64,000 bases of DNA from Microbulbifer sp. ALW1 (GTDB lineage: Bacteria; Pseudomonadota; Gammaproteobacteria; Pseudomonadales; Cellvibrionaceae), in assembly GCF_009903625.1 (NCBI RefSeq), contig NZ_CP047569.1, positions 1,644,501 through 1,708,500 on the forward strand. The letters run 5' to 3'. The notes under the pieces were generated by a model. The model was not told the origin of the DNA. It searched no databases and saw only the letters and a list, made by a program, of their open reading frames with translations. This document shows positions 33,213-47,473 of the stretch, piece by piece. Positions within the stretch are counted from its first letter, which is position 1. Each line of letters starts with the position of its first letter. Made by a program: the position numbers and the translations under genes.

Positions 33213-33298
33213 GCCCAGGTGGTGGAATTGGTAGACACGCTATCTTGAGGGGGTAGTGAGCTATGCTCGTGCGGGTTCAAGTCCCGCCCTGGGCACCA
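33213..33298 (+). tRNA. leuU: tRNA-Leu(GAG)
   Basis: The 86-nt gene has a GCCCAGG/CCTGGGC acceptor pairing, the D-loop GGAATTGGTAGAC, anticodon loop CTTGAGG with anticodon GAG, a long class II variable arm, the T-loop GGTTCAAGTCC and encoded CCA. It reads CUC/CUU leucine codons. It lies 35 bases after secG and is probably processed from the same transcript. Confidence 0.97.
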
Positions 33299-33337
33299 CA
33301 TTGAAAGCCGGACTTTTCATGGGTTCGGTATCCTTCC

Positions 33338-33366
33338 AAAAGCCCCGCATTGCGGGGCTTTTGTGT
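33338..33366 (+). terminator. terminator after secG-tRNA-Leu
   Basis: AAAAGCCCCGC pairs with GCGGGGCTTTT, followed by GTGTTT. It closes the housekeeping run; the accessory island begins after it. Confidence 0.92.
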
Positions 33367-33454
33367 TTCTGAAGCGCTCAAATCTCTGAACGTTTTGCCC
33401 TCGAATTCCCAATAGGACAGAATGGACTAGCCGTCCATTGAACTGGGAATTCGC

Positions 33455-36352
33455 ATGCAGCCTTCGCCAATCACTGACTACCACGCCAAATATTTCGCAT
33501 TCGAGCTAACACGTCAGCGCCGTGGTGGTGACATAAGCCGCTTGGGGAGCTCCCTGTTCGATGCCTCCGTTGACTTGAACCCTCACCAAATCGATGCCGC
33601 TCTCTTTGCTCTGCAAAACCCTCTAGTAAAAGGCGTTGTTCTGGCAGACGAGGTGGGGCTCGGTAAAACCATCGAGGCTTCTTTGGTCATTGCTCAGCTA
33701 TGGGCGGAGAGAAAGCGGCGTATCGTGGTTATCTGCCCGGCGGCACTGCGCAAGCAGTGGGCCAACGAGCTGGCAGAAAAGTTCCACCTGCCGACGCAAG
33801 TATTGGACAACAAAACCTGGAGGGCGCTGCGTAAGGAGGGGAATCCCGACCCGTTCGACAGCCCGGTGATTTCCATCTTTTCCTACCAGTTTGCCAAGCG
33901 GATGGAGCAGCAATTGCGGCAAACCCCTTGGGATCTGGTGGTGATTGATGAAGCCCACAAGCTGCGCAACGCTCATAGGGACAGCAACATTATCGGCAAC
34001 AGCCTTCGCGAAACCTTTGCAGGCTGCAAAAAACTGCTGTTAACCGCGACACCTCTGCAGAACTCCCTGCTGGAGCTGTTTGGGCTCTCGACCATCATTG
34101 ACGAAAACCTATTCGGTGACAAAGCCAGCTTTCGCCAGCAGTACATGCGCGCTGATAGTGACCTGCACGGATTAAAAGGCCGGCTGGAAGAGTTTGTGCA
34201 TCGTACCCTGCGTAAACAGGTACTGGAGTATGTACCTTATACAGAGCGCAAAGCCTACACCTATGAGTTTGAGCCGAGTGAAGATGAAATGCGGCTTTAC
34301 TACTCGATCTCGGCCTACCTGCAGCGGGACGATAGCTACGGCGTACCAATGCAACAGCGGCATTTGGTTACGCTGGTTGTACGCAAGCTGCTGGCATCGT
34401 CTACCGCTGCGGTGCGTAAAACGCTGGATAGCCTGCTGAAACGGCTAAAAAAACTCGAAGAAAAAGGCAAGATCAATGCGGCCAATGATGACCTCTGGCC
34501 GGAAGAGCTACTGGATGACGATTTCGACGATGAGCTACTGGAGGCGGCAGAAGAGGCGCCCGAGTACGACGCCAGTGGCCCAGAAGTGCCGATCGATATG
34601 GACAAGTTGCGGGGAGAGATCGCTGAACTGGAGCAGTATCGCGAACTGGCCGAGCGTATCTTTGAGGATGCTAAATCAGAATCCCTGCTTGTCGCACTAG
34701 ATCAGGGGCTTGGCAAAATGGCCGAGCGCGGTGCCGAGCGCAAAGCGGTAATTTTTACCGAATCCTGCCGCACTCAGGAGTACCTAGCCAGTCACTTGGA
34801 GCGCCACGGCTATGCCGGCAAAGTTGCACTGTTTAGCGGCAGCAATAACGCCCCGGGTACCAACGCCATTTACCAGCGCTGGCTACAAGAACACCAGGGT
34901 ACCGACCGCGTAACCGGTAGCCGCGCTGTCGACGCCCGTACCGCCATCATCGACCACTTTCGTACTGATGCCGAGATCCTGATTGCCACCGAGGCTGCCG
35001 CCGAAGGTGTCAACCTCCAGTTCTGTAGCTTGGTGATCAATTACGACTTGCCCTGGAACCCTCAGCGCGTGGAGCAGCGTATCGGTCGCTGTCACCGTTA
35101 TGGCCAGAAGCACGATGTGGTGGTGATCAACTTTTTGAATAAAAAGAATCAGGCCGACCGCCGTGTACTAGAGCTTCTCAGCCACAAATTTTTGCTGTTC
35201 GATGGCCTCTTCGGTGCATCTGATGACGTCTTGGGCAGTATCGAGTCTGGTCTAGATATCGAGAAGCGCATTGTAGCCATCTATAACGAATGCCGAGATC
35301 CTGCGGAAATTCAGGCCGCCTTCGACAAGCTGCAGCAAGAGCTGGAAGACGATATTGCCAAGCGTATGGATGAGACCCGTGAAAAGCTGTTCGAGCATTT
35401 TGACGCCAATATCCACGATAAGCTTAAGTTACGTCAGGAAGAAGCCCAGCTACAGCTGGATCAAATGAGCCGCATGTTCTGGAACCTCAGCCAGCATATT
35501 CTTGCGGCGCGCGCCGATTTCACGCCTGCCAACCTGACGTTTCAACTACAGCAGCCCCCGGAAGGTCTTGCAGTGCCTTCCGGGCTTTATCAGCTAACGG
35601 GCAGGGACAAGCAGCAGAAGCCCATTGAGCAAGCGTACCAATACCGGCTAGGTCACCCCCTTGGAGAGTGGGTGCTGGATACTGGTCGACGCCTGGATAC
35701 TCCCTTCGAGGCTGTTGAGTTCAACTTGGCGGGATTTAGCAAAAAGCTCTCCTCACTCGAACCCTTGCAAGGGCAGGCGGGCTGGCTGGAACTGAACCAA
35801 CTGCAGCTATCCAGCTTCCAAAATGAAGAGCACCTGGTATTTACCGCCTTTACCGATGACGGCCGCTTGCTGGACCCAGAGCAGTGCGCCGACCTTTTCC
35901 TGCTGCAGGCACAATCTATTTTTCTCGAAGGCAATAGCGACGAACAGGGGCTGCCCGAGACGCTCGAGCAAAACGCCAAGCGTCAACTAGATGCCAAACT
36001 CAGCAAGCTGCTGGATGAAAACAACGAGTACTTCAAGCGCGAGCGCGACAAGTTAGAAGCCTGGGCGGACGATCAGATGAAATCCGCCCAGAAGCAACTG
36101 GAAGATACCCGTGCCGAGCTGCAGAAGGCCAAGAAACTGAGCCGCCAGGCAGACACTATTCAAGAGCAAAAGGAAGCGCAGGAGTCGATCAAAAAGCTGG
36201 AGCGCCTGCAGCGCCGCCAGCGCCAGGAGATTTTTGACGTGGAGGATGCTATCGAGGCCCGTCGCGACGCCCATATTGACGCCCTCGAGCAACAGATGCA
36301 CCAGAAGAGCAGCACCCAAAGGCTGTTCACTATCCGCTGGCGCCTGGTGTGA
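33455..36352 (+). CDS. SNF2-family helicase-like ATPase of a defence island
   Basis: Large superfamily 2 ATPase, 965 residues. Motif I is ADEVGLGKTIEA (GKT at 70-72), motif II is DEAH at 165-168, motif III is LLLTATPLQNS. In the C-terminal RecA lobe are IATEAAAEGVNLQ, NYDLPWNPQRVEQRIGRCHRYGQ, the SNF2/RapA-type motif VI. Residues 365-385 are acidic. The last 130 residues are a charged coiled coil (KQLEDTRAELQKAKKLSRQ...). Enzymes of this type move along double-stranded DNA. It is the first gene of the island and resembles DISARM DrmD in class, but the DUF1998 partners of DISARM are absent. Confidence 0.85.
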   Translation: MQPSPITDYHAKYFAFELTRQRRGGDISRLGSSLFDASVDLNPHQIDAALFALQNPLVKGVVLADEVGLGKTIEASLVIAQLWAERKRRIVVICPAALRKQWANELAEKFHLPTQVLDNKTWRALRKEGNPDPFDSPVISIFSYQFAKRMEQQLRQTPWDLVVIDEAHKLRNAHRDSNIIGNSLRETFAGCKKLLLTATPLQNSLLELFGLSTIIDENLFGDKASFRQQYMRADSDLHGLKGRLEEFVHRTLRKQVLEYVPYTERKAYTYEFEPSEDEMRLYYSISAYLQRDDSYGVPMQQRHLVTLVVRKLLASSTAAVRKTLDSLLKRLKKLEEKGKINAANDDLWPEELLDDDFDDELLEAAEEAPEYDASGPEVPIDMDKLRGEIAELEQYRELAERIFEDAKSESLLVALDQGLGKMAERGAERKAVIFTESCRTQEYLASHLERHGYAGKVALFSGSNNAPGTNAIYQRWLQEHQGTDRVTGSRAVDARTAIIDHFRTDAEILIATEAAAEGVNLQFCSLVINYDLPWNPQRVEQRIGRCHRYGQKHDVVVINFLNKKNQADRRVLELLSHKFLLFDGLFGASDDVLGSIESGLDIEKRIVAIYNECRDPAEIQAAFDKLQQELEDDIAKRMDETREKLFEHFDANIHDKLKLRQEEAQLQLDQMSRMFWNLSQHILAARADFTPANLTFQLQQPPEGLAVPSGLYQLTGRDKQQKPIEQAYQYRLGHPLGEWVLDTGRRLDTPFEAVEFNLAGFSKKLSSLEPLQGQAGWLELNQLQLSSFQNEEHLVFTAFTDDGRLLDPEQCADLFLLQAQSIFLEGNSDEQGLPETLEQNAKRQLDAKLSKLLDENNEYFKRERDKLEAWADDQMKSAQKQLEDTRAELQKAKKLSRQADTIQEQKEAQESIKKLERLQRRQRQEIFDVEDAIEARRDAHIDALEQQMHQKSSTQRLFTIRWRLV

Positions 36353-36365
36353 ACAGGAAATCGTC

Positions 36366-36700
36366 GTGAGCCGGTATGACGCAGAAGGCGTTGAGGCGGA
36401 GCAGCAGCCGGGTGCTGAGGAGGGTGTGCTGCGCAATAGCCTGGGCCTACTGCTAAAAAAGGACATCGGCGACGCCGAAACCGAACTGCTCGAAAAGCTC
36501 TATGAAGAGGTGCTCGATGAACCCCGTGAAGTGCTTTGCTTTGAGGATGTTCGGCACTGGAGGCGGGCTTGGCGCCCCTCGACTATCAACTGTGGGAAGA
36601 CCATAAAGACTTCTACTTCAACTCAATCCAGGCGGGGGTTGCCGGTGATTATCGGCATATGGAGCGATTGATAAGAGATGTGCTGGAGCAGCAGGGATGA
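36366..36700 (+). pseudogene. Fic-family protein remnant (deleted and frameshifted)
   Basis: From a GTG at 36366 the frame gives SRYDAEGVEAEQQPGAEEG..., a start typical of Fic/cell-filamentation proteins, up to CFEDVRHWRR. After that the matching reading continues in another frame as LEAGLAPLDYQLWEDHKDF and AGVAGDYRHMERLIRDVLEQ, typical of the Fic C-terminus, ending at a TGA (36698-36700). The middle, with the catalytic HxFx(D/E)GNGR motif, is missing. An internal out-of-frame deletion therefore inactivated the gene. It sits 13 bases after the helicase gene, so an intact Fic was probably part of the ancestral operon. Confidence 0.7.
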
Positions 36701-36771
36701 CAGTTAGGTGGAGAGAGAGGAGTAAAATTCAATGGCTCAGTTTCTACTGAGCCAGAACCGGCGAACGCGAA

Positions 36772-36936
36772 TCAATGAGCCAGCTGCAGACTGGAGAAGC
36801 GACGCTTACCACTTTTCAGTCGCGCCTCAATTACCTTGCTAGGCTCGCCAGTCTCAATAGCGCTAGAGCTGGCTACGGTACGGCGGATCTGACTCCGGCT
36901 GATTTTGCGGCTGCCTGACTTGGGTCTACGGGTCAT
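36772..36936 (-). CDS. small basic protein of unknown function
   Basis: A 54-residue, Arg/Lys/Ser-rich protein (MTRRPKSGSRKISRSQIRRT at the start), with no membrane segment. GGAG lies seven bases before the ATG at 36936, which supports a real gene; the open frame extends upstream only as noise. It is on the opposite strand to the rest of the island, between the Fic remnant and the methyltransferase. It could be a small DNA-binding or regulatory protein. No function is assigned. Confidence 0.55.
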   Translation of the reverse strand: MTRRPKSGSRKISRSQIRRTVASSSAIETGEPSKVIEARLKSGKRRFSSLQLAH

Positions 36937-37160
36937 AGCGTTCTCCTGAATAACCGCCCAATTATACCAAATTCCAGGGCGAAACACTCCCAGCGCCCCG
37001 CAATTACCCCTTGCTCTTGCCCGCGAACTACCAATCCTCGCCATTGCCCCTCTTGTGCCTTCCTCTGCTGGCCCTCTCGTCGCCATTGACGCAGAATATG
37101 GCTCTATTCTGCACGCAAAAAGTGCATAAAAAACATACGGACGCAAGGAATACAGGCCCC

Positions 37161-40100
37161 ATGACCGATAAGCCACTTAGCTCCAACAGCACCCAGGTGC
37201 TCAAGGCCGAGCAGCGCCGCAAAAAATTTGCCGAACTCCTACGCGAGATGTTCCAGCTCAACCAGCCGGAACTGGATTTCGGCCTCTACCGCATCATGCA
37301 TGCCCGCAAAGGCGACATTAACCGTTTTATCGAGCGCGACCTGCCCAGAATAACCCGCCAGGCGTTTGCCAACTTCGCCTCCAGCGACAAGGCCGAGCTG
37401 CAAAAGGAGTTGGACAAGGCCATTGCCGGCGCTCAAGCCCTGGAAGTGGACCCGGACACCCTGCCCAAGGTACAGCAGCTTAAAGCCCAGCTGAACGATG
37501 GCTTTGACCTGGCGCGAGAAGAAGGTGAGGTGTACGACGCCCTGGTGACCTTCTTTAACCGTTACTACGACGAGGGCGATTTCCTCTCGCGCCGGGTGTA
37601 CAAAAACGGCACCTACGCCATTCCCTATCAGGGGGAAGAGGTGGTATTGCACTGGGCCAACAAAGACCAGTACTACATCAAAAGCAGCGAAACCCTGCGC
37701 GACTACAGCTTCCGCCTCAACCCTAACACCAGCGATATCGAGCCCGACCCGCTGCGTGTGCACTTCAAACTGGTGGACGCCGAAGCCGGAGCCCAGAACA
37801 ACAACAAAGAGAGTGATAGCGGCAAGCGGGTATTTATTCTCGATGCCGAGCAACCATTCGAGTTGATCGAAGGCGAGCCCAACGAAGACGGTCAGCAGTT
37901 CCCGGAGCTGCAAATCCGCTTTGTATTCCGCGCTGCGACGCAAGACGACTGGAACAGTAACGCTGCCACTCAGGCGGAACTGGCCAAAGCCACCGCTGCC
38001 GCTAAAAAGAAACCACCGGTACAGGGTGTGCTGGTTGCCAGTGCTACCGCCTGGCTATTGAGCGAGGAGGGCGGCCTGCCCGAACAGTGGCGCCGGCTAT
38101 TGGCCCAGCCTTATACCAAGGCCAATGGCGAGCAGGCGGACTACAGCCGCCTGCAGGGCCAGCTTAACAATTACACCAAGAAAAACAGCTTCGACTATTT
38201 TATCCACAAAGATCTTGGCGGTTTTTTGAATCGCGAGCTGGATTTCTACATCAAGAACGAACTGCTCGACTGGGCCGACCTCGCTGCGCTGAAAAACAAT
38301 CCTACCCGCCTAGCGCCACTGCTGAGCAAGATCGAAGTCATCCGCAAGCTGGGCGAGAGCATTATCGCGTTTCTGGCGCAACTGGAGAATTTCCAGAAAA
38401 AACTCTGGCTCAAGAAAAAGTTTGTTACCGAAACCAACTACTGCATCACTCTGGATCGCCTGGCCGAGCATACGGCCCTGCTCGAGCAAGTTTTTGCTAA
38501 TGAGAGGCAGCTCCAGGACTGGCAACAGTTGTACAAGCTGGATCTGGAACAGCTAAAGCAAGACTACGCGCAGCAGGATTGGCCGGAATTTCTCGCCCAA
38601 CCCAAGTACCGTTACTTGATGTTGGATACACGCCACTTCGACGACGTTTTCAAGGCGCAGCTGTTGGCTACTATCGAGGACCTGGATGCCCAGTGTGATG
38701 GCTTGTTGGTGCACTCGGAAAATTTTCAGGCACTAAATCTGCTGCAAGAGCGCTACCGGGAGCAGGTAAAGTGTATTTATATTGATCCACCCTATAATAC
38801 TGATGCCAGTGCCATCATGTATAAGAATGGTTATAAATCTTCGACGTGGGCCTCCCTTATTTGGGATAGATTGTTACGGGCAAAAAGCTTTCTAAGACCT
38901 GCGGGAGTCTTAGCGGCAGCGATTGATGACGAGCAAAAGAATGAACTTTCTTTTTTAATGAAGGAAGCTTTTGAGTCGGATTTGCTGGCAGTGTTTTGTA
39001 TTAGGTCAAACCCCTCTGGGCGCCCAACTAAAACCGGATATTCAGTTTCACATGAATACACATTATATTCTGGGAAAGACGCCAGTTCTTTTGTAAGACG
39101 ACTTCCTCCAACAAAGGAGCAGTCTGCTCGATTTAATGAGTCAGATGATTTAGGGAGGTTTGAATGGAGAAATCTGAGGCGAGAGGGCTCTAACTCCGAT
39201 CGATCTGCTAGGCGCGCGCTTTTCTATCCGATTTATATACGTAATGGTGAAATTCACGTTCCTGAAATGGAGTGGAGTGAAGGAAAAAAAGAGTGGATAG
39301 TTTTAGAAGATAAAAAAATCTCAGATATTGTAGTGTGGCCGGTTAACGATCAGGGGGAAGAAAAAACCTGGCGATGGGAGTCAAAAAAAGTTACGTCTTC
39401 ACTAAGCTCTCTTGGGGTTCGTAAAGATAGGTCGGGTAAAGATTACATTTACTATAAGCGCCGCCCGAATGAAGATGGAGTGGTATCTGTTTCTTCTTGG
39501 TTTGATGCTAAGTACTCTTCGACAGAACATGGTTCTGCCATCATTAAAGATTTATTTGGGGGTATGGTTTTCTCATACCCGAAATCTATTCATGCTGTGA
39601 CGGATTCAATTTATATTTCCGGGGCTGCAGAAAGAGGCGCAACTGTTTTAGATTATTTTTCAGGTTCGGGAACTACTGGGCATTCAGTTATTAACTTAAA
39701 TCGCGAAGATCATGGGAAACGAAAATATTTATTGGTCGAAATGGGGGATTATTTCGACACCGTACTAAAACCCCGTATCCAGAAAGTGGCCTACGCCGAA
39801 AACTGGAAGGTCGGTGCTCCGGTCGCCGATAGTGAAGGCGGGTTCAACGGCATGTCACACTGTTTCAAGTATGTGCGCCTGGAGAGCTATGAAGATTCCC
39901 TCGGAAATCTAGCCCTGCACCGCGGCAAAGGCCAGCAGGAATTGTTGCAGGCCCACGAAAACTCCGAACTGGACGCCGCCCGTCAAAGCTATGTAATGAA
40001 CTATCTGCTGGAGGTGGAAACCCGCGGGTCCCGCTCGCTGCTTAATACCAAACTGTTCACCGATCCCACCGCCTATCAACTGGACGTGCGCTCCGCCAGT

Positions 40101-40628
40101 GGTGACGAGACCAAGGCGGTCAATGTGGACCTGCTGGAAACCTTCAACTACCTGCTGGGCCTTACCGTCGAACACATCGCCGCGCCCGTCTGGTTTGACG
40201 CCGAGCTGAGCCAGGGTGAGTTCGGCCGCTGGCAGGCTCAGGTGAGCCGCGTTGGCGCCGAAGCGCTGGCGAGTAAGAGCGAGGAAAAGCGCAAGCAACT
40301 CTGGTGGTTCCGCACCGTGTACGGCACTAATCGCGCAGGCCAGAAGGTGCTAGTAGTATGGCGCAATCTGCCGTCGGTGATTGCCGAGAAAGACAAAGGC
40401 CTGCTACTGGATAACGCGGTGCTGGACGCAGTGCTGATCGAGAAACTGAATATCCGCCTCACCCAGAGCTCCGATGACGAGGTGGATATCCTCTATGTCA
40501 ACGGCGACCACAATATCGCCATCCCCAAAAACCGCCGCGGCGAGCCCATGGAAGAGGCCCGGGTGCAGTTGATTGAAGAGGCCTTCCACCGGCTGATGTT
40601 TGCCGGCACCGAAGCGGCAGAGCACTAA
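37161..40628 (+). CDS. site-specific adenine DNA methyltransferase (type III Mod-like, large)
   Basis: Probable N6-adenine methyltransferase of 1155 residues. Motif IV DPPYN is at 542-546 and the AdoMet motif FSGSG at 833-837; DPPY before FxGxG marks the beta class, as in type III Mod subunits. The long N-terminal part (1-530) has no motif I recognise and a C-terminal part of about 290 residues follows. Start at ATG 37161 is the best in-frame choice; an open frame reaches 37011. Bases about 38765-39745 (residues 535-862, the catalytic and target-recognition core) are much more AT-rich than the flanks. It ends 9 bases before the Res-like gene. Confidence 0.87.
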   Translation: MTDKPLSSNSTQVLKAEQRRKKFAELLREMFQLNQPELDFGLYRIMHARKGDINRFIERDLPRITRQAFANFASSDKAELQKELDKAIAGAQALEVDPDTLPKVQQLKAQLNDGFDLAREEGEVYDALVTFFNRYYDEGDFLSRRVYKNGTYAIPYQGEEVVLHWANKDQYYIKSSETLRDYSFRLNPNTSDIEPDPLRVHFKLVDAEAGAQNNNKESDSGKRVFILDAEQPFELIEGEPNEDGQQFPELQIRFVFRAATQDDWNSNAATQAELAKATAAAKKKPPVQGVLVASATAWLLSEEGGLPEQWRRLLAQPYTKANGEQADYSRLQGQLNNYTKKNSFDYFIHKDLGGFLNRELDFYIKNELLDWADLAALKNNPTRLAPLLSKIEVIRKLGESIIAFLAQLENFQKKLWLKKKFVTETNYCITLDRLAEHTALLEQVFANERQLQDWQQLYKLDLEQLKQDYAQQDWPEFLAQPKYRYLMLDTRHFDDVFKAQLLATIEDLDAQCDGLLVHSENFQALNLLQERYREQVKCIYIDPPYNTDASAIMYKNGYKSSTWASLIWDRLLRAKSFLRPAGVLAAAIDDEQKNELSFLMKEAFESDLLAVFCIRSNPSGRPTKTGYSVSHEYTLYSGKDASSFVRRLPPTKEQSARFNESDDLGRFEWRNLRREGSNSDRSARRALFYPIYIRNGEIHVPEMEWSEGKKEWIVLEDKKISDIVVWPVNDQGEEKTWRWESKKVTSSLSSLGVRKDRSGKDYIYYKRRPNEDGVVSVSSWFDAKYSSTEHGSAIIKDLFGGMVFSYPKSIHAVTDSIYISGAAERGATVLDYFSGSGTTGHSVINLNREDHGKRKYLLVEMGDYFDTVLKPRIQKVAYAENWKVGAPVADSEGGFNGMSHCFKYVRLESYEDSLGNLALHRGKGQQELLQAHENSELDAARQSYVMNYLLEVETRGSRSLLNTKLFTDPTAYQLDVRSASGDETKAVNVDLLETFNYLLGLTVEHIAAPVWFDAELSQGEFGRWQAQVSRVGAEALASKSEEKRKQLWWFRTVYGTNRAGQKVLVVWRNLPSVIAEKDKGLLLDNAVLDAVLIEKLNIRLTQSSDDEVDILYVNGDHNIAIPKNRRGEPMEEARVQLIEEAFHRLMFAGTEAAEH

Positions 40629-40637
40629 GGGGGCAGC

Positions 40638-43600
40638 ATGGCAGCAGCAAAGAAAAAGCCGGCCGCTAAAGCGCCCGCAAGCAAAAGCGGCGTGCGTGCG
40701 AAAAAGGCTAAGAAGCAGACACTGGAGTTCCGCCATCACCTGGTGCTGAACCAGTGGCTCTTCTCCCTGTTTGGCTTTGAATCCGTATCCGGGCGCTACC
40801 CGGTGGATAAAACCAATCAACGTGCGGCCGCGACATTGGAGGCCTTCCGCGATCGTTTCCAGCTGATGGGCGATGTGACCGGGCGCAATGGCGACGGTGT
40901 GCACCGCATCGTCGAGGCCATCATCCAGAATTACGATAATGGTCCCGGCCAGATTGCCACCAGCCAGATTAAGCTGACCGAAGAGCAACTGCTGGATTAC
41001 GACCGTCATATCAAACAGATTACTGACAAAATTAATCTGGCCCGCCAGACCGCTGGGGAATCACCACTGGAGTGGAAGTACTTCCAGTATCTGGCACTGC
41101 TATTTACCGAAATCTACCTGGACTACTTCTTCACCCGCCTGGAAGAACTGCTGGCGGCCCTGAACGAACAGATTGAGCGCTGGAACCAGCACTGGCTGGA
41201 TGAGGGCAACTACGGTCACAAGCCGCTAAAGGTGTTGAATGCGGACGACGATCTGTGGCCGCAACTGGCTCGTATCGCCTTCTGGAGCGCCACCGGTTCC
41301 GGTAAGACCCTGCTGATGCACGCCAATATCCAGCAGTTCCGCTACTATCTGAAGCGCTTCGGTAAGGCGCGCAATATCAACAAGGTTATTCTGCTTACGC
41401 CCAATGAGGGCCTCACCCGTCAACATCTGCAGGAACTGAAAATATCGGGTATCGAGGCCAGCGAGTTTACGCCCCGCGCTGGCCAGGACGACCTGTTTGC
41501 GCAAAATCCGGTATTGGTAATCGATATCAACAAGCTGCGGGACAGCGAGAAGAACAAGACCGTCGCCGTAGACAGCTTCGGTACCAATAACCTGCTGCTG
41601 GTGGACGAAGGGCACCGGGGAACCGCCAGCGGCGGTGGCACCTGGCTGGATTACCGACGCAAGCTCTGCGCCAAGGGCTTTTCCTTTGAGTACTCGGCGA
41701 CCTTTGCGCAATCCAGCGGGCAGCACGAGAACCTGCGCCAGATCTACACCAAGTCGATCCTGTTCGATTACTCCTACCGCCATTTCTACAGCGATGGCTA
41801 CGGCAAGCAGTCGCAGATTCTGAATCTGGAGCAGAACCTGGATGGCGAGGACGAGTATCGCTACCTGGTGGCTTCGCTGCTGAGCTTTTACCAGCAGCAA
41901 CGGCTGTTCGATGATCAGCCCGATACCTTCAAGCGCTTTAATCTGTACCGGCCTTTGTGGGTGTTCGTCAGCTCCAAAGTGGCTGCGAAGTCTGGTGGGC
42001 TAAATCCGGGCGAAGCAAACGATACGATTAAGGTGTTGCAGTTTATCGACCGCGTGCTTAGCCAGAGAGAAGTCACCGAGAGTGCCATCGAGCAACTCCT
42101 AAACAAAGGTATGGAAACCGCCGGTGGCCGCAATCTGTTGGATGGACGTTTCAATTACCTGAAGGAATTGGATCAATCCCCGGCGGACCTGTATGCGGAT
42201 ATATTGGAGCGGGTTTTCCATACCAGTGGTGGTCGCCTGTATATTGAAAACATTACCGGCGTGGCTGGAGAAATCGCGCTGCGTGGTGGCGCTTCCGATA
42301 CTCCGTTTGGCGTAATCAACGTAGGGGATGACGGCAAGCTGGTGAAACTCTGTGAGACCCACGACCTTCTTACGCAAGATGCGCGATTCAGTAGTTCACT
42401 GTTCAATACCATTAATGGTGATGGCTCACCGGTGAACCTGTTACTGGGTTCGAAGAAGTTTACCGAGGGCTGGAGCAGCTGGCGGGTGTCCAATATGACA
42501 CTGATGAATGTGGGTAAAAACGAAGGTGCGCAGATCATCCAGTTGTTTGGCCGCGGTGTGCGTCTTAAGGGCTTCCAGACCACATTGAAACGCTCTGCTG
42601 AACTGATCAATGAGCTCAAGCAGGCGGGACTGGAGCGAGCACGGCATATCGGTATTCTGGAAACCCTCAACTTGTTTGGGGTCAAGGCCGACTACATCGC
42701 CCAGTTCCGCAAGGAGCTGGAAGATGAAGAAATCCCGGTCAATCACGGCCTGATTGAATACGAGCTTCCGCTGGCCCCCATGAAAGATCTCCCTGGCAAC
42801 CTGCCGGTGATCCGATTAAAACCCGCTGTGGCGGGCAAGGCCATTGGCGGCGCGGGCAGTGCCTTTATGGAGCTGGCGGAGCAGGTGGAACTATTGCCGC
42901 CTACCGAATTTCATCGGCGTGGTGAGATGGGTGCATTTAACTATTTCTGCAACCCGCCCCGAGTACAATTGGATTTTTATCCTCGCGTCGGTGCTTTCTC
43001 TACCGATACACAGGGGGAGCGCGAGGTAAAACGAAAATCACAGCGCTTCACTGGTGGGCACCTGGCGGTAATGGATATGGAGGCGCTCTATTTTGACCTG
43101 CTTGCGTTCAAACGCGATCGGCGCTGGTCCAACCTGACGCTCTCGCAAGCCCGTATTACTGAACTTTTAGCGGAGGATGGCTGGTACCAGCTTCAGGCTC
43201 CGGATTCGGCGATGGCCTTGGGCGACCTTAGCAAGCTACCTCTGTGGCATGAAATGGCGGGAGCCCTGCTCCGCAAGTACTGCGAAATGTTCTATGGCTA
43301 CCGCCGCAAACAGTGGGAGGCGGACAAGCTTGAATATCGACCTATCACAGAAAACAACAAATACTTGTTTGGCGTTACTGAGCAGTCTCCCCACGGTAGT
43401 TACACACTCACACTGGATTCAATGCGCCATGAATCATTAATCAAGCAGCTGGATAGTCTGCGCACGCAGATTCTCGAAGAAGATGTAGCGAAATGGAAAG
43501 ACAAGGTGCTCGATGGTCTGGAGTTTCTTTGGTGTGAACGACATTTTTATCAACCGCTTGTCGCCGCCACCCAGGGGCTGGACTTTCAGGTAAGCCCGGT

Positions 43601-44081
43601 CTCTCTGAACAAGGGCGAAGCTCAGTTCGTCAAGGATCTTCAAAGCGCCTGGGAGCAGGATGTATTCGATGGCTTCGAGCTATACCTACTGCGCAACCAG
43701 AGCGGGCAGGGTGCTGTTGGCGCTTTCATTGATGGCGGTTTCTACCCGGACTTTATTCTGTGGCTGGTTCGCGATGGTAAACAGCATGTGGTGTTTGTGG
43801 ATCCCAAGGGCCTGCGTAACCACAAACCATCGAGCCCGAAAGTGAAGTTTCATAAAACCATCAAGGATATGGAAGCCAAGTTGATCGAAAATGATCCGGC
43901 CAATGGCAATATTCAGTTGGATGCGTTTTTGATATCGAATACACCCAAGGCGACACTGCTTGGGGACTGGGTGGATGAGAAGGGTAATCCGGTAACGGAA
44001 CAACAATTGGATGACTGGAATATTCTGTTCGAGCAGGATAAAGAGGCTGCCATCAAGCGAATGGTGCAAAAAATTGCGTAG
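40638..44081 (+). CDS. Res-like helicase-nuclease (type III restriction subunit-like)
   Basis: Superfamily 2 helicase fused to a nuclease, 1147 residues. It starts with a Lys/Ala-rich tail (1-30). Motif I ATGSGKT is near 219, motif II DEGH near 323, and SATFAQSSG near 355 corresponds to motif III. QIIQLFGRGVRLKG near 635 corresponds to motif VI. The C-terminal part has FYPDFILW (about 1036) and VVFVDPKG (about 1051), spacing expected of a PD-(D/E)xK nuclease, here ending in D-P-K. It directly follows the methyltransferase, as Res follows Mod in type III systems, and probably cuts unmodified DNA. Confidence 0.85.
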   Translation: MAAAKKKPAAKAPASKSGVRAKKAKKQTLEFRHHLVLNQWLFSLFGFESVSGRYPVDKTNQRAAATLEAFRDRFQLMGDVTGRNGDGVHRIVEAIIQNYDNGPGQIATSQIKLTEEQLLDYDRHIKQITDKINLARQTAGESPLEWKYFQYLALLFTEIYLDYFFTRLEELLAALNEQIERWNQHWLDEGNYGHKPLKVLNADDDLWPQLARIAFWSATGSGKTLLMHANIQQFRYYLKRFGKARNINKVILLTPNEGLTRQHLQELKISGIEASEFTPRAGQDDLFAQNPVLVIDINKLRDSEKNKTVAVDSFGTNNLLLVDEGHRGTASGGGTWLDYRRKLCAKGFSFEYSATFAQSSGQHENLRQIYTKSILFDYSYRHFYSDGYGKQSQILNLEQNLDGEDEYRYLVASLLSFYQQQRLFDDQPDTFKRFNLYRPLWVFVSSKVAAKSGGLNPGEANDTIKVLQFIDRVLSQREVTESAIEQLLNKGMETAGGRNLLDGRFNYLKELDQSPADLYADILERVFHTSGGRLYIENITGVAGEIALRGGASDTPFGVINVGDDGKLVKLCETHDLLTQDARFSSSLFNTINGDGSPVNLLLGSKKFTEGWSSWRVSNMTLMNVGKNEGAQIIQLFGRGVRLKGFQTTLKRSAELINELKQAGLERARHIGILETLNLFGVKADYIAQFRKELEDEEIPVNHGLIEYELPLAPMKDLPGNLPVIRLKPAVAGKAIGGAGSAFMELAEQVELLPPTEFHRRGEMGAFNYFCNPPRVQLDFYPRVGAFSTDTQGEREVKRKSQRFTGGHLAVMDMEALYFDLLAFKRDRRWSNLTLSQARITELLAEDGWYQLQAPDSAMALGDLSKLPLWHEMAGALLRKYCEMFYGYRRKQWEADKLEYRPITENNKYLFGVTEQSPHGSYTLTLDSMRHESLIKQLDSLRTQILEEDVAKWKDKVLDGLEFLWCERHFYQPLVAATQGLDFQVSPVSLNKGEAQFVKDLQSAWEQDVFDGFELYLLRNQSGQGAVGAFIDGGFYPDFILWLVRDGKQHVVFVDPKGLRNHKPSSPKVKFHKTIKDMEAKLIENDPANGNIQLDAFLISNTPKATLLGDWVDEKGNPVTEQQLDDWNILFEQDKEAAIKRMVQKIA

Positions 44082-44154
44082 TTAACACTCTCATTGGAGG
44101 GGCGCCGGGAGAGAGAAGGTCCTCTTCAGACGAGAATCAGCCAGGATAATAATA

Positions 44155-45513
44155 ATGAAATTTGTAGCAAATTCAGTTAATGGCACATACATGCGGGACA
44201 TCCTATATGAGATGCCCACTGATGCCGAAATAGATTGCGTGCTCGCCGCCGTCGCCTATGGCGGCGGCACTTCGAACGATGATGAGGATTTGATTGGGCA
44301 TGCCGTTGCCAACAATCTGCGGCTAGATCTTTGGATGCGCTATGACCATACCGTTCCGGTGGCCGTGCCCTTGCTTAAGCGCTTGCTGAAGCATCAAGCC
44401 GATAACGTATTTACCAGTTTCGTCCCGGATCGCTTTCACCCCAAGGTTATTTGGTGGCAGGGCTATGGGGCGTATATCGGTTCCGCCAACCATACCGATA
44501 ACGGCTGGAATAAGAATGTCGAAGCTGGTGTTTTTCTGACCGAGGACGAACTGGCCACCAACGGTATGGAGCAGGAGCTGACGTTTTTTTTCGACTACTT
44601 GCGGAACCTTGACGTCACTATCCCACTGTCGGCCGACTATATTGCCGAGCAGGAGCACTTCCAGAAATTAAATCGCGAAAACTTTCAAAAGGCCAGATCC
44701 GACCGGAAACATCCCGAGTGGGAGGGTCCGATTGTTGTTGCCAAAAAAAATGCCTTGGATCGGCGAAAGGAAAGCTTCCGAATCGAGTGGCTGTCCACGC
44801 TGGGCTATCTCGAGCAAATCCAAAAGCAGGTGGTGGACTTCCGTCCCACCTGGCTCAAGGGCGACGTGCCCGCGGCGTGGCAGGTCGATCAATTTCTACA
44901 TGCGTATTACTACAATCGTGTCGGCGAAGGTTTACGTAAGCCCTACAAGGAGTATTTTGAGCGGAATCAGAAAGATCCAAACGCCGCTCTTATGGTCGAG
45001 TTGGACTGGTGGGCCTCCCAGCCCAATGCACCGTCCCAGGAAGATACCAACCTATACGAACGGGCGCCCGTGCTTCGAAAGCTGCTGCAGAAGGATAGAG
45101 TTTTGTCGCTTACAGCGAGCGAATTCGAACAAGTCTGCGGTAATACCCATGCAACCGTAGACCATATTATTAAAATTCCTGCCGCCGCACTCGGGCGGCC
45201 GGATCTAGCCTCGATTAAGCTCGATGAGCGCATAGCTTTGTTCGCGCCGCTGCTGTTCGAAAAGCGCAACCGCAAAGGTTGGGGAGTGCAACAAATATTA
45301 CACTTCGTGCTGGATGGCGGCGATGCTGGAGATACTTGGGAGCGCCTCTACCACGCCGGTTGCGATCCGGAGTACAGAATTCCGAGGTATGGCCTCAATT
45401 CTTTGGCTGAGGTCATCGGCTGGGCGCGCCCCGAAGTAATGCCACCGCGCAATGGGCGCACCAGCAAGGCGTTGCAAGCGCTAGGGTTTCCGGTATCGGT
45501 CTATGGAGGATAG
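44155..45513 (+). CDS. phospholipase D-like domain protein
   Basis: Protein of 452 residues with one PLD-type motif near residues 97-115: FHPKVIWWQGYGAYIGSAN (H-x-K followed by G-S-x-N). The N-terminal domain is typical of PLD-family nucleases found with restriction and helicase genes. The rest matches no family I know. With one HKD motif, such proteins usually act as dimers. AGGATAATAATA precedes the ATG. It probably supplies a nuclease or DNA-binding step for the island. It is more AT-rich than the housekeeping neighbours. Confidence 0.75.
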   Translation: MKFVANSVNGTYMRDILYEMPTDAEIDCVLAAVAYGGGTSNDDEDLIGHAVANNLRLDLWMRYDHTVPVAVPLLKRLLKHQADNVFTSFVPDRFHPKVIWWQGYGAYIGSANHTDNGWNKNVEAGVFLTEDELATNGMEQELTFFFDYLRNLDVTIPLSADYIAEQEHFQKLNRENFQKARSDRKHPEWEGPIVVAKKNALDRRKESFRIEWLSTLGYLEQIQKQVVDFRPTWLKGDVPAAWQVDQFLHAYYYNRVGEGLRKPYKEYFERNQKDPNAALMVELDWWASQPNAPSQEDTNLYERAPVLRKLLQKDRVLSLTASEFEQVCGNTHATVDHIIKIPAAALGRPDLASIKLDERIALFAPLLFEKRNRKGWGVQQILHFVLDGGDAGDTWERLYHAGCDPEYRIPRYGLNSLAEVIGWARPEVMPPRNGRTSKALQALGFPVSVYGG

Positions 45514-45619
45514 TTATCTGGAGGCCATCGTCGAGATTTTAAGCATCGATGAGCTGAGTGGAGAAATCTTCGTTTTCGCGACTAAAGTGGCGCTTAATCA
45601 GTACGAACAGAAAAATTAA
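45503..45619 (+). CDS. possible 38-residue protein overlapping the PLD gene end
   Basis: An ATG inside the last codons of the PLD gene (CTATGGAGGATAG) opens a frame of 38 residues, MEDSYLEAIVEILSIDELSG..., acidic at first and ending KN. It stops 11 bases before the next gene. The overlap suggests translational coupling. It may be real or chance; codon content gives weak support. Confidence 0.4.
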   Translation: MEDSYLEAIVEILSIDELSGEIFVFATKVALNQYEQKN

Positions 45620-45630
45620 TAGGATTATCC

Positions 45631-46515
45631 ATGCTCGGTGATATCGAAGCTTTTTTTGCATTGGCAGATCGAGCCAAGCGATTCTTCTCGCGACGCAGTC
45701 AGAGCGAATCTGATGGCAGTGTGGCAGCACGATTCGTACAGCTGTTCCAGGCCCATGGAGTGCACCGCAACCAGATTCCACGCTTTTTCGGTCACGATTT
45801 GACGTTGGCTAAGGTCAAAGATGACGACGCGTTGCTGTCGACACTAACGGAGGAGATGCTCACAAATGCTGCAGAGTTGTTCGCGGTACGCCGCGAATGG
45901 CTTGACGGTGCCTCTTCCCAAATCTATGAATTGAACCACTTTTACAAGGAGCCGCAGCGCTTCGCGCAATTTATTAACGCAATAATAAAGCGCGCCAATC
46001 AGTTGGGCGGCCAGTTGTTTGTGGAAGATTCTCGGCGGAAGAGCGGATACGCGGACTCGCTACTTGTTTTGGAAGAAAGTATCGGTTTCGTGGGTGAAAA
46101 AGTCATCTACCGCTTCCATCTCTGCGATTTTCGTAGCTTTAGCTATTGGAAAACCCGCGCCTACCTAACTGCTTGTATTGCCTACGCTTGGGAGAATGAT
46201 TTTTATATCCACGGTGGCAATTTGGAAACAAAAAAGATATCACCTCTGTTGGAAGGTGAGGCATTTATTGATGTCAGTGAATTTGGAGGCGGTATTTCCC
46301 ATCAAGGCCAACGCTGGGATCCAGAGTACATGGCACTGGATCCAGAGGTCTATCTGCGCGGGATAGACGAGGGGCATATAGGCAAGGTATTAGCATTAGA
46401 GAAATGGCTGGAGCTCGAAAAGGAAGGCTGGATGCGCTGCGGCTTAGGAGATGGGGGGCGATTGGCCATTGAGCAGAAATTGGACCAGCTCAAATCTGTT
46501 GCGGTTGTTAGTTGA
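45631..46515 (+). CDS. island protein of unknown function with N-terminal HTH-like region
   Basis: Protein of 294 residues. AGGA lies seven bases before the ATG. Residues about 28-90 (VAARFVQLFQAHGVHRNQIPRF, then LTLAKV and FAVRREWLDGA) read like a short helix-turn-helix region of a kind seen in bacterial proteins next to defence genes. The remainder (about 100-290) has no motif I can name; it contains YWKTRAYLTACIAYAWEND and a run of acidic and aromatic residues. It may be a regulator or sensor of the island. It ends the island, facing the YebC-type gene. Confidence 0.6.
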   Translation: MLGDIEAFFALADRAKRFFSRRSQSESDGSVAARFVQLFQAHGVHRNQIPRFFGHDLTLAKVKDDDALLSTLTEEMLTNAAELFAVRREWLDGASSQIYELNHFYKEPQRFAQFINAIIKRANQLGGQLFVEDSRRKSGYADSLLVLEESIGFVGEKVIYRFHLCDFRSFSYWKTRAYLTACIAYAWENDFYIHGGNLETKKISPLLEGEAFIDVSEFGGGISHQGQRWDPEYMALDPEVYLRGIDEGHIGKVLALEKWLELEKEGWMRCGLGDGGRLAIEQKLDQLKSVAVVS

Positions 46516-46538
46516 ATCCGTAAGTTAGTTTCGCTACT

Positions 46539-46567
46539 AGCGGGGGAGCGCTCAAGCTCGCTCCCCC
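46539..46567. repeat. GC-rich inverted repeat at the right edge of the island
   Basis: GCGGGGGAGCG and GCTCGCTCCCCC form a hairpin of about ten pairs between convergent genes. No T-run follows on either strand, so it is at best a weak terminator. Confidence 0.45.
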
Positions 46568-46592
46568 GAGAAGTAGCTCGATTCAGTAGATG

Positions 46593-47312
46593 CTAAGTAT
46601 TCTCCACATTGTGATAAACCGCCTGCACATCCTCCAAATCTTCCAGCATGTCCATAAACTTCTCAAACAACGCCACATCATCCCCACTGATCTGTGTATA
46701 GGTCTGCGGCACAAACTGAATCTCATCTACTTCAAAGTCGATATCACCAAAGGCTTCAATCAACGCCTGCTTGGCTTTGAAGTAATCGGTATGCGGTGCG
46801 AATACGGAGAGTTTGCCGTCTTCGTTTTCGATATCGGTGACATCCACGTCGGCTTCCATCAGGGCTTCCAGTACCGCTTCTTCGTCGTCGTGTTTGAACA
46901 CCAGGATCGCCAGGTGATCGAAGCTGTGGCTGACGGAGCCTTCGGTGCCGATCTTGGTTTTGGTTTTGGTGAAGGCCTGACGCACGTCGCCGAAGGTGCG
47001 GTTGGGGTTGTCGGTCAGGCATTCGATGATGGCCATGCAGCCGCCGGGGCCGAAGCCTTCGTAGCGGGCGCGCGCGAAGTCTTCGCCGGCGCCACCCTTG
47101 GCCTTGTCGATGGCCTTTTCGATTACGTGGGTGGGGACCTGTTCTTTCTTGGCGCGCTCGATCAGGCTGCGCAGGGCCAGGTTGCCGTTGGGGTCGACGC
47201 CTCCAGACTTGGCGCTCACATAGATCTCGCGGCCGTAGCGGCTGTAGACCCGAGCCTTCATGTTCGAGGTCTTGGCCATGGAATCTTTGCGGTTCTGATA
47301 GGCTCTGCCCAT
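46593..47312 (-). CDS. YebC/PmpR family protein (YeeN-type)
   Basis: Protein of 239 residues in the YebC family, first described as transcription regulators and now linked to translation at stalled ribosomes. The N-terminus [20 protein letters not shown] differs from classic YebC (MAGHSKWANIKHRK) and fits the second paralogue, YeeN. Other landmarks are [30 protein letters not shown] and the C-terminal [14 protein letters not shown] lies eight bases before the ATG at 47312; the longer frame is not supported. It borders the island. Confidence 0.9.
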
Positions 47313-47441
47313 GGGGGGATGCTCCAAATTCATTGAGGTGGGCGATTTTACTGGCAGGTAGAGGGAAATTGAAGCCGTTCGCTGTCCGGGGATGTGACGC
47401 TGGCTGGCTTGGCAGTCAGCTTGCTTGTTCAATGGATGTGA

Positions 47442-47473
47442 CCAAAAAAAGACCGGCCAGAGGCCGGTCAAAA
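47442..47473 (-). terminator. terminator after xdhABC
   Basis: Minus strand: GACCGGCC-TCTG-GCCGGTC followed by seven T residues, 60 bases beyond the xdhC stop. Confidence 0.88.

Follow-up and report, generated by a model that had tools for sequence, protein, structure and literature searches.

Gene content of the island

The analysed window, 64,000 nucleotides from the genome of Microbulbifer sp. ALW1 (4.68 Mb in a single contig, G000; compared genomes and loci carry G and L numbers), contains an island of putative defence genes at positions 33455–46515. Its core consists of genes for a SNF2-family helicase, a DNA methyltransferase (Mod) and a helicase-nuclease (Res). A preliminary description of the island had listed a SNF2 helicase, a Fic remnant, a small basic protein, a beta-class methyltransferase, a Res-like helicase with a PD-(D/E)xK end, a PLD protein, a tiny open reading frame (ORF) and a last gene. 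Apart from the small basic protein, which needed revision (see below), all of these were found. All genes of the island are read on the + strand except one ORF of 54 aa, which lies on the - strand. Among the named records, the closest relative at this locus is Microbulbifer rhizosphaerae (L001), with 92% identity in Res.

The first gene (33455–36352, + strand) encodes a protein of 965 aa with the Pfam domains SNF2-rel_dom and Helicase_C and the motifs GLGKT (residue 68), DEAH (residue 165) and QRIGRCHR (residue 541). By sequence, its best relative in the PDB is RapA. Changes relative to L001 fall mostly on the third codon position (76, 46 and 450 at the three positions).

Mod (37161–40628, + strand, 1155 aa) was taken to start at the ATG at 37161; the listed ORF starts at a TTG at 37011, and the Pfam and PADLOC searches were run on this longer reading. 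They gave matches to N6_N4_Mtase and to the MTase_III profile PDLC03646 (649 bits), respectively. The motifs DPPY (residue 542) and FSGSG (residue 833) stand in the order of beta-class enzymes. Mbo45V was matched by sequence in the PDB (1.2e-30), and the fold of the AlphaFold2 model (predicted local distance difference test score, pLDDT, 74.9) matched those of the type III Mods 6k0w (3.9e-18), EcoP15I (1.5e-16) and Mbo45V (2.9e-13).

Res (40638–44081, + strand, 1147 aa) follows after 9 bases. It is a superfamily 2 (SF2) helicase (Pfam ResIII; PADLOC REase_III PDLC03654, 583 bits) with the motifs GSGKT (residue 220), DEGH (residue 323) and QLFGRGVR (residue 635), and it ends in a PD-(D/E)xK nuclease, the motif of which (43617–43808, + strand) comprises E994, PD 1037–1038 and DPK 1055–1057. 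In 16 aligned Res proteins E994, P1037, D1038, P1056 and G1058 were invariant; some distant members have E in place of the D of DPK. As in the SNF2 gene, most changes relative to L001 are at the third codon position (82, 41 and 457).

Co-conservation of SNF2, Mod and Res

A set of 60 non-duplicate loci with a Res match above 900 bits was compiled (nine duplicates removed), of which 46 had at least 6 kb of upstream sequence and were informative; 14 were dropped. Close relatives, i.e. the window and L001 as well as six Marinobacter loci, were each counted separately. A SNF2 helicase of the same family was present beside Mod-Res in 34 of these 46 loci, a UvrD-type helicase in four (L017, L024, L044 and L076) and neither in eight. 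L023, in which the UvrD and PD-(D/E)XK genes lie on the opposite strand, was counted as having neither. When genome contigs were searched for Res, 13 of the 15 loci contained SNF2, Mod and Res; in the remaining two the contig stops before reaching the SNF2 position. The combination of two DNA translocases with one methylase, called unusual in the preliminary description, is thus a recurrent design. The SNF2 profile had no match at five more distantly related Mod-Res pairs (L055, L056, L058, L059 and L062; Res 50–181 bits).

Nine of the 34 matching plasmid records were examined. SNF2-Mod-Res was found in Hymenobacter, E. coli, Aeromonas, Blastomonas and Conchiformibius, and no member of the SNF2 family was seen beside Mod-Res in the examined plasmids of Priestia, Athalassotoga and two haloarchaea. 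Further loci came from searches of viral contigs and genomes. The hosts of the UvrD loci include Bacillota and Thermotogota, and the archaeal plasmids examined carry neither companion.

Distance matrices of the three proteins agreed with each other: r was 0.80 for SNF2-Res (p=0.0005), 0.77 for SNF2-Mod and 0.92 for Mod-Res, based on 29 of the 34 SNF2 loci, with the five that have broken genes left out. In a quickly built Res tree, the branches of which were long, SNF2 was distributed over most clades and UvrD occurred in separate places (L024/L044, L017 and L076). A PD-(D/E)XK domain lies behind UvrD in all three loci scanned with Pfam, L017, L024 and, weakly, L076 (23.7 bits with a cut-off of 22); the UvrD of L044 was assigned by profile only. 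L076 (1121–4980) contains a UvrD-PDDEXK gene followed by an ORF of 109 aa homologous to the C-terminus of SNF2 and then Mod, and its close Res relative L081 has a whole SNF2 gene. Judging by this homology, the companion was exchanged in L076 and the SNF2 tail was kept.

The specificity region of Mod, or target recognition domain (TRD), was located by block identity to relatives at approximately residues 551–850 (38811–39710, + strand). Here Mod is only 12–36% identical to that of L001 in blocks of 50 residues, with 42% in the next block. Outside this variable part the identity is 84–98% per block, except for the first block (40%), where the start taken for L001 is perhaps the cause. The same region is 50–88% identical to L008 and L013, the Mods of which are 68% identical to that of the window overall. 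The recognition region of the window thus recurs in relatives that are more distant and not in the nearest one, which fits an exchange of recognition modules; on these alignments, the specificity region has been exchanged.

The family is uncommon. It was present in 6 of 398 Pseudomonadota genomes and in 9 of 369 Gammaproteobacteria genomes (both counts include the genome of the window), and in 4 of 58 genomes of relatives (own included), all four with SNF2. At least 80% of the cassette of L018 was found in 2 of 5,426 E. coli genomes. The same cassette was matched somewhere in 170 E. coli plasmid records, and most of it in only 2. A piece of 298 bp of its Res gene (L018:13916–14213) matches E. 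coli plasmid records, with 99.7% identity in the 13 partial matches listed; it is annotated there as a DUF1158 protein and is perhaps an old, plasmid-spread fragment.

Some loci showed irregular core genes. In L067 (16311–19898; genome G036, same genus) a second helicase of the SNF2/ResIII type, of 1195 aa, lies directly upstream of the triad. SNF2 and Mod are each broken over several frames in Marinobacter salarius R9SW1 (L007:3553–9975), and Res is open. In L078 (5465–8557 and 8750–11508) Mod consists of two ORFs of 718 and 311 aa and SNF2 is split near its C-terminus, either by a natural split or by a sequencing error.

Genes inserted in the core

Other genes interrupt the core in 16 of the 46 loci (gaps of more than 300 bases, contents determined with Pfam). 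The threshold gave 18 rows, two of which were removed: L022, an artefact of a SNF2 gene lying behind Res, and L040, which contains an IS1 transposase and an ORF of 108 aa with no Pfam match. Fic genes were found in the gaps of L001, L002, L005, L008 and L083, and a broken one in the window. The other gaps contain Abi_2 (L009), AAA_21 with DUF4276 (L004 and L076, and L019 by record names), RhuM (L074 and L081, the latter also with KilA-N), GmrSD_N with AAA_15 and two unknown genes (L084), AbiJ_NTD4 with DUF559 (L085), a RecD-like helicase and one unknown gene (L016), or one unknown gene (L020).

The broken Fic gene of the window (36366–36700, + strand) lies between SNF2 and Mod and matches the PADLOC profile PDC-S04 (1.7e-11). 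Its N-terminal and C-terminal pieces are in different frames, and both align to the intact Fic proteins of L001 and L002. The catalytic stretch HPFREGNGR, kept in these two relatives, is missing from the window. Next to it lies the ORF of 54 aa (36772–36936, - strand), which is conserved in L001 and L002. We read this ORF as coding because its changes relative to the two relatives peak at the third codon position, most clearly in the comparison to L002 (10, 8 and 17 changes relative to L001; 14, 14 and 32 relative to L002). In our reading, the small basic protein described earlier at this place is this ORF on the minus strand. The ORF contains the sequence SSAIETGE, which resembles the S-x-x-x-E-G motif in the inhibitory helix of Fic antitoxins, although the G does not fit exactly. 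By this resemblance, the ORF may encode an antitoxin retained beside a dead Fic toxin.

On the same strand outside the core, we observed E1/E2/JAB genes (L002 and L003), GmrSD (L013 and L031), metallo-beta-lactamase-fold genes (L005 and L012) and an AAA_13 gene (L006), which we presume to be related to PrrC. Several of the neighbour proteins that were scanned had no Pfam match.

Genes downstream of Res

The PLD-like protein of 452 aa (44155–45513, + strand; Pfam PLDc_2, 28.7 bits) starts 73 bases behind Res. A putative ORF of 38 aa (45503–45619, + strand) overlaps its stop and is followed by the gene for a protein of 294 aa (45631–46515, + strand), for which a structure model (pLDDT 89.6) predicts an Xre-like helix-turn-helix domain (residues 28–96) and an alpha/beta domain (residues 99–235). 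Searches of protein collections gave 1337 relatives of the PLD protein and 492 of the 294-aa protein, and in two cases relatives of both came from contigs of equal size and source (13347 and 24642 bases). This hints that the two families pair with each other; possibly they form a separate neighbouring module of a nuclease with a DNA-binding partner, although the support for this is weak.

Comparison with known systems

With type III restriction-modification (R-M) systems (EcoP15I, EcoP1, Mbo45V) the window shares a beta-class Mod with the order DPPY-TRD-FxGxG, in which the variable region lies between the two motifs, an adjacent SF2 helicase Res with a C-terminal PD-(D/E)xK domain, and the exchangeability of the specificity region. 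The kinship with type III Mod-Res pairs, already noted in the preliminary description, is confirmed by the PADLOC type III profiles. The window differs in the approximately 500 residues that stand ahead of the methylase core of Mod, and in the SNF2 gene that joins the pair; type III systems are two-gene operons, and of the 46 loci eight have neither SNF2 nor UvrD and 38 have one of them. Given two unmethylated sites in inverse orientation, type III enzymes cleave 25–27 bp from one of them in an ATP-dependent manner, and they are thought to reach the second site by sliding along the DNA.

A published sister design is that of the UvrD-Cas4 fusions, the commonest neighbourhood of which is type III Mod and Res (PMC5704561). 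L017, L024 and L076 look alike to it, and L044 by profile only. The arrangement of a companion helicase beside Mod-Res is common to both, but the companion in the window is a SNF2 protein in which Pfam detects no nuclease domain; a UvrD fused to PD-(D/E)XK is absent from the window. The main text of that paper makes no mention of the word SNF2. A three-gene set with a SNF2 helicase and a methylase is also known from the DUF499-centred, BREX-related Hma systems (PMC12839542), in which the third gene encodes an AAA+ DUF499 ATPase and not a type III-like Res. A PADLOC model for HmaA matched the SNF2 protein at 191 bits, models for HmaB and HmaC were not listed for the other island ORFs, and no DUF499 domain was found with Pfam among the seven island ORFs scanned. 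We therefore do not assign the island to this group, which requires the DUF499 ATPase.

Fic/Doc, RhuM and PrrC genes occur within R-M operons, for which layered defence has been proposed (PMC3710099). The island resembles these operons in having toxin genes among R-M genes, and differs in that the host operon is SNF2-Mod-Res. One Cronobacter element is listed with a type III restriction enzyme, Mod, a SNF2 helicase and other genes, unanalysed in the passage concerned (PMC12757443), and a methylase-SNF2 fusion has been described (PMC8102008). Otherwise, passages of PMC8102008, PMC12458937 (ARMADA), PMC2292703, PMC10853773 and PMC7251935 contained other helicase-methylase designs or nothing nearer. 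Full-text searches of an open-access library showed no report of SNF2 partnering type III Mod-Res; as most subscription papers lie outside it, this is a weak absence. The suggestion that the island is a little-described system thus holds only in part: PADLOC recognises the Mod-Res pair as type III, and the UvrD-Cas4 loci form a sister of the general design. Published precedents exist both for UvrD-Cas4 beside type III Mod-Res and for toxin genes within R-M operons; for SNF2 as the alternative companion none was found in these searches.

Proposed function and alternative explanations

SNF2, Mod and Res probably form a three-gene R-M system of type III, supplemented by a motor for double-stranded DNA. 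This reading is based on the presence of SNF2 beside Mod-Res in 34 of 46 loci and of a UvrD-type helicase in four more, on the agreement of SNF2 and Res distances, on the SNF2 tail retained in L076, on the predominance of third-position changes in both SNF2 and Res, and on the lack of SNF2-profile matches at the five distant Mod-Res pairs. The match of the Mod fold to type III enzymes and the exchange of the specificity region also support it.

Mod would recognise a short asymmetric site and methylate adenine there. On unmethylated invader DNA, Mod-Res would depart from the site as a sliding clamp at the expense of ATP, and Res would cut with its C-terminal PD-(D/E)xK domain; ATP-driven sliding and cutting are established for EcoP15I. 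SNF2 would most likely act on the same DNA, by moving along the duplex and either clearing bound proteins or processing cut ends, and so let restriction reach completion. Since a UvrD helicase-nuclease fills the same place in other lineages, we expect SNF2 to assist at the cleavage step or afterwards and not in recognition. Toxin genes in the gaps, in the window the decayed Fic gene with its possible antitoxin, may be replaceable second-line cargo. More tentatively, and with doubt prevailing, the loci could make up a class of their own, type III systems of three components, in which a dedicated, interchangeable working motor (SNF2 for most lineages, UvrD-Cas4 for others) docks via a short C-terminal tail that survives exchange of the motor, and in which the gaps are sockets for replaceable toxins that fire when restriction fails.

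Several findings weigh against a three-gene system. Both companions are missing from eight of 46 loci, so a motor is not strictly required, and L022 has its SNF2 gene behind Res. Correlated distances can also arise without interaction, when neighbouring genes are inherited together in mobile cassettes. Both the construction of the profile from loci similar to the query and the presence of six close Marinobacter relatives among the 34 SNF2 loci favour the SNF2-bearing side. The K of the nuclease motif is replaced by H in some distant Res proteins. Finally, the known hosts of SNF2 loci are limited to two phyla (Pseudomonadota and, with a single plasmid, Bacteroidota), which slightly raises the chance that SNF2 is a passenger. 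This is the main rival, an ordinary two-gene type III system next to which SNF2 is independent cargo common in defence islands. The PADLOC type III profiles, which match Mod and Res alone, and the ease with which other genes interrupt the core also speak for it. We nevertheless consider it unlikely, for cargo varies by locus whereas one SNF2 family recurs with distances that track Res, the substitute in four loci is again a helicase, and the tail of SNF2 was retained in L076.

Two wider readings take in the genes downstream of Res. The preliminary description had grouped all genes into one composite island, and the shared strand, the short gap between Res and PLD and a relative of the 294-aa protein (37% identical) behind Res in L012 agree with a single system. 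However, that relative was the only one in another Res locus. In a scan of 107 records, no other Res locus had a match to the PLD profile; the matches came only from copies of the window itself and from three plasmid records that had been retrieved for their PLD gene. L001 has neither gene within 10 kb downstream. Co-conservation of SNF2 and PLD with Mod-Res had been named beforehand as a test; SNF2 passed it (13/15 and 34/46) and PLD did not. As the PLD and 294-aa families moreover hint at pairing with each other, a composite system including both is quite improbable, and only SNF2, Mod and Res travel together. Still more remote is a reduced or degenerate DISARM system of which SNF2 (DrmD), a methylase and PLD (DrmC) are left. 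DrmD models do match SNF2 at 655–665 bits, and DrmC models match PLD weakly. Yet all scores miss the curated cut-offs (DrmD_b 665.5 of 950 bits, a second DrmD model 303.4 of 610, DrmC 26.1 of 133), Mod is a type III-like beta-class enzyme and thus a methylase of another kind, and PLD is unlinked in relatives. DUF1998 (PF09369), the MZB domain of the DISARM protein DrmB, which was correctly reported as lacking in the island, had no match in the entire genome; the same search matched 8 of 14 control genomes. DISARM membership is already contradicted by these data, and of the kinship proposed earlier only a related helicase of the broad DrmD kind remains.

If SNF2-Mod-Res is a three-gene system, it bears on type III sliding, which should be blocked by DNA-bound proteins: a swappable partner motor from two unrelated helicase families would make the handling of roadblocks and cut ends directly testable. 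Such loci may be under-recognised, since profile matches alone read as a plain type III pair with a stray DrmD-like gene. That specificity regions and inserted genes are exchanged marks the operon as a modular platform.

Genomic setting of the island

The island lies in a variable interval (33299–46592) bordered on the left by a tRNA-Leu (GAG) gene (33213–33298, + strand, found with ARAGORN) and on the right by a core gene that we take to be yebC-like (46593–47471, - strand; this is the span of the ORF, the true start lying inside). In 37 Microbulbifer genomes searched, 20 regions (L087–L106) were read, and secG and tRNA-Leu (GAG) adjoin in all of them. Copies of yebC with 91.6–98.7% identity were found downstream of the tRNA gene in 8 of the 20 regions. 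The distance ranged from about 0.15 kb in L089, where the site is nearly empty, to about 9.5 kb in L094. In the other 12 no yebC was found within the 12–13 kb read per region; some of these may differ in gene order.

The G + C content across the island (0.48–0.58) was lower than directly outside (approximately 0.57–0.63); this is a weak sign, because other parts of the window go down to 0.53. Eight of nine large proteins at the tRNA-Leu site in six relatives matched PADLOC models and one did not; the nine were picked for size, so this is no rate. The matches were the BREX genes BrxC and PglX (L093), the Ssp-like SspF and SspH (L091), type IV restriction (L092 and L094), IetS (L096) and a GajB-like UvrD helicase (L088). 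The tRNA-Leu to yebC interval is a variable defence hotspot in Microbulbifer.

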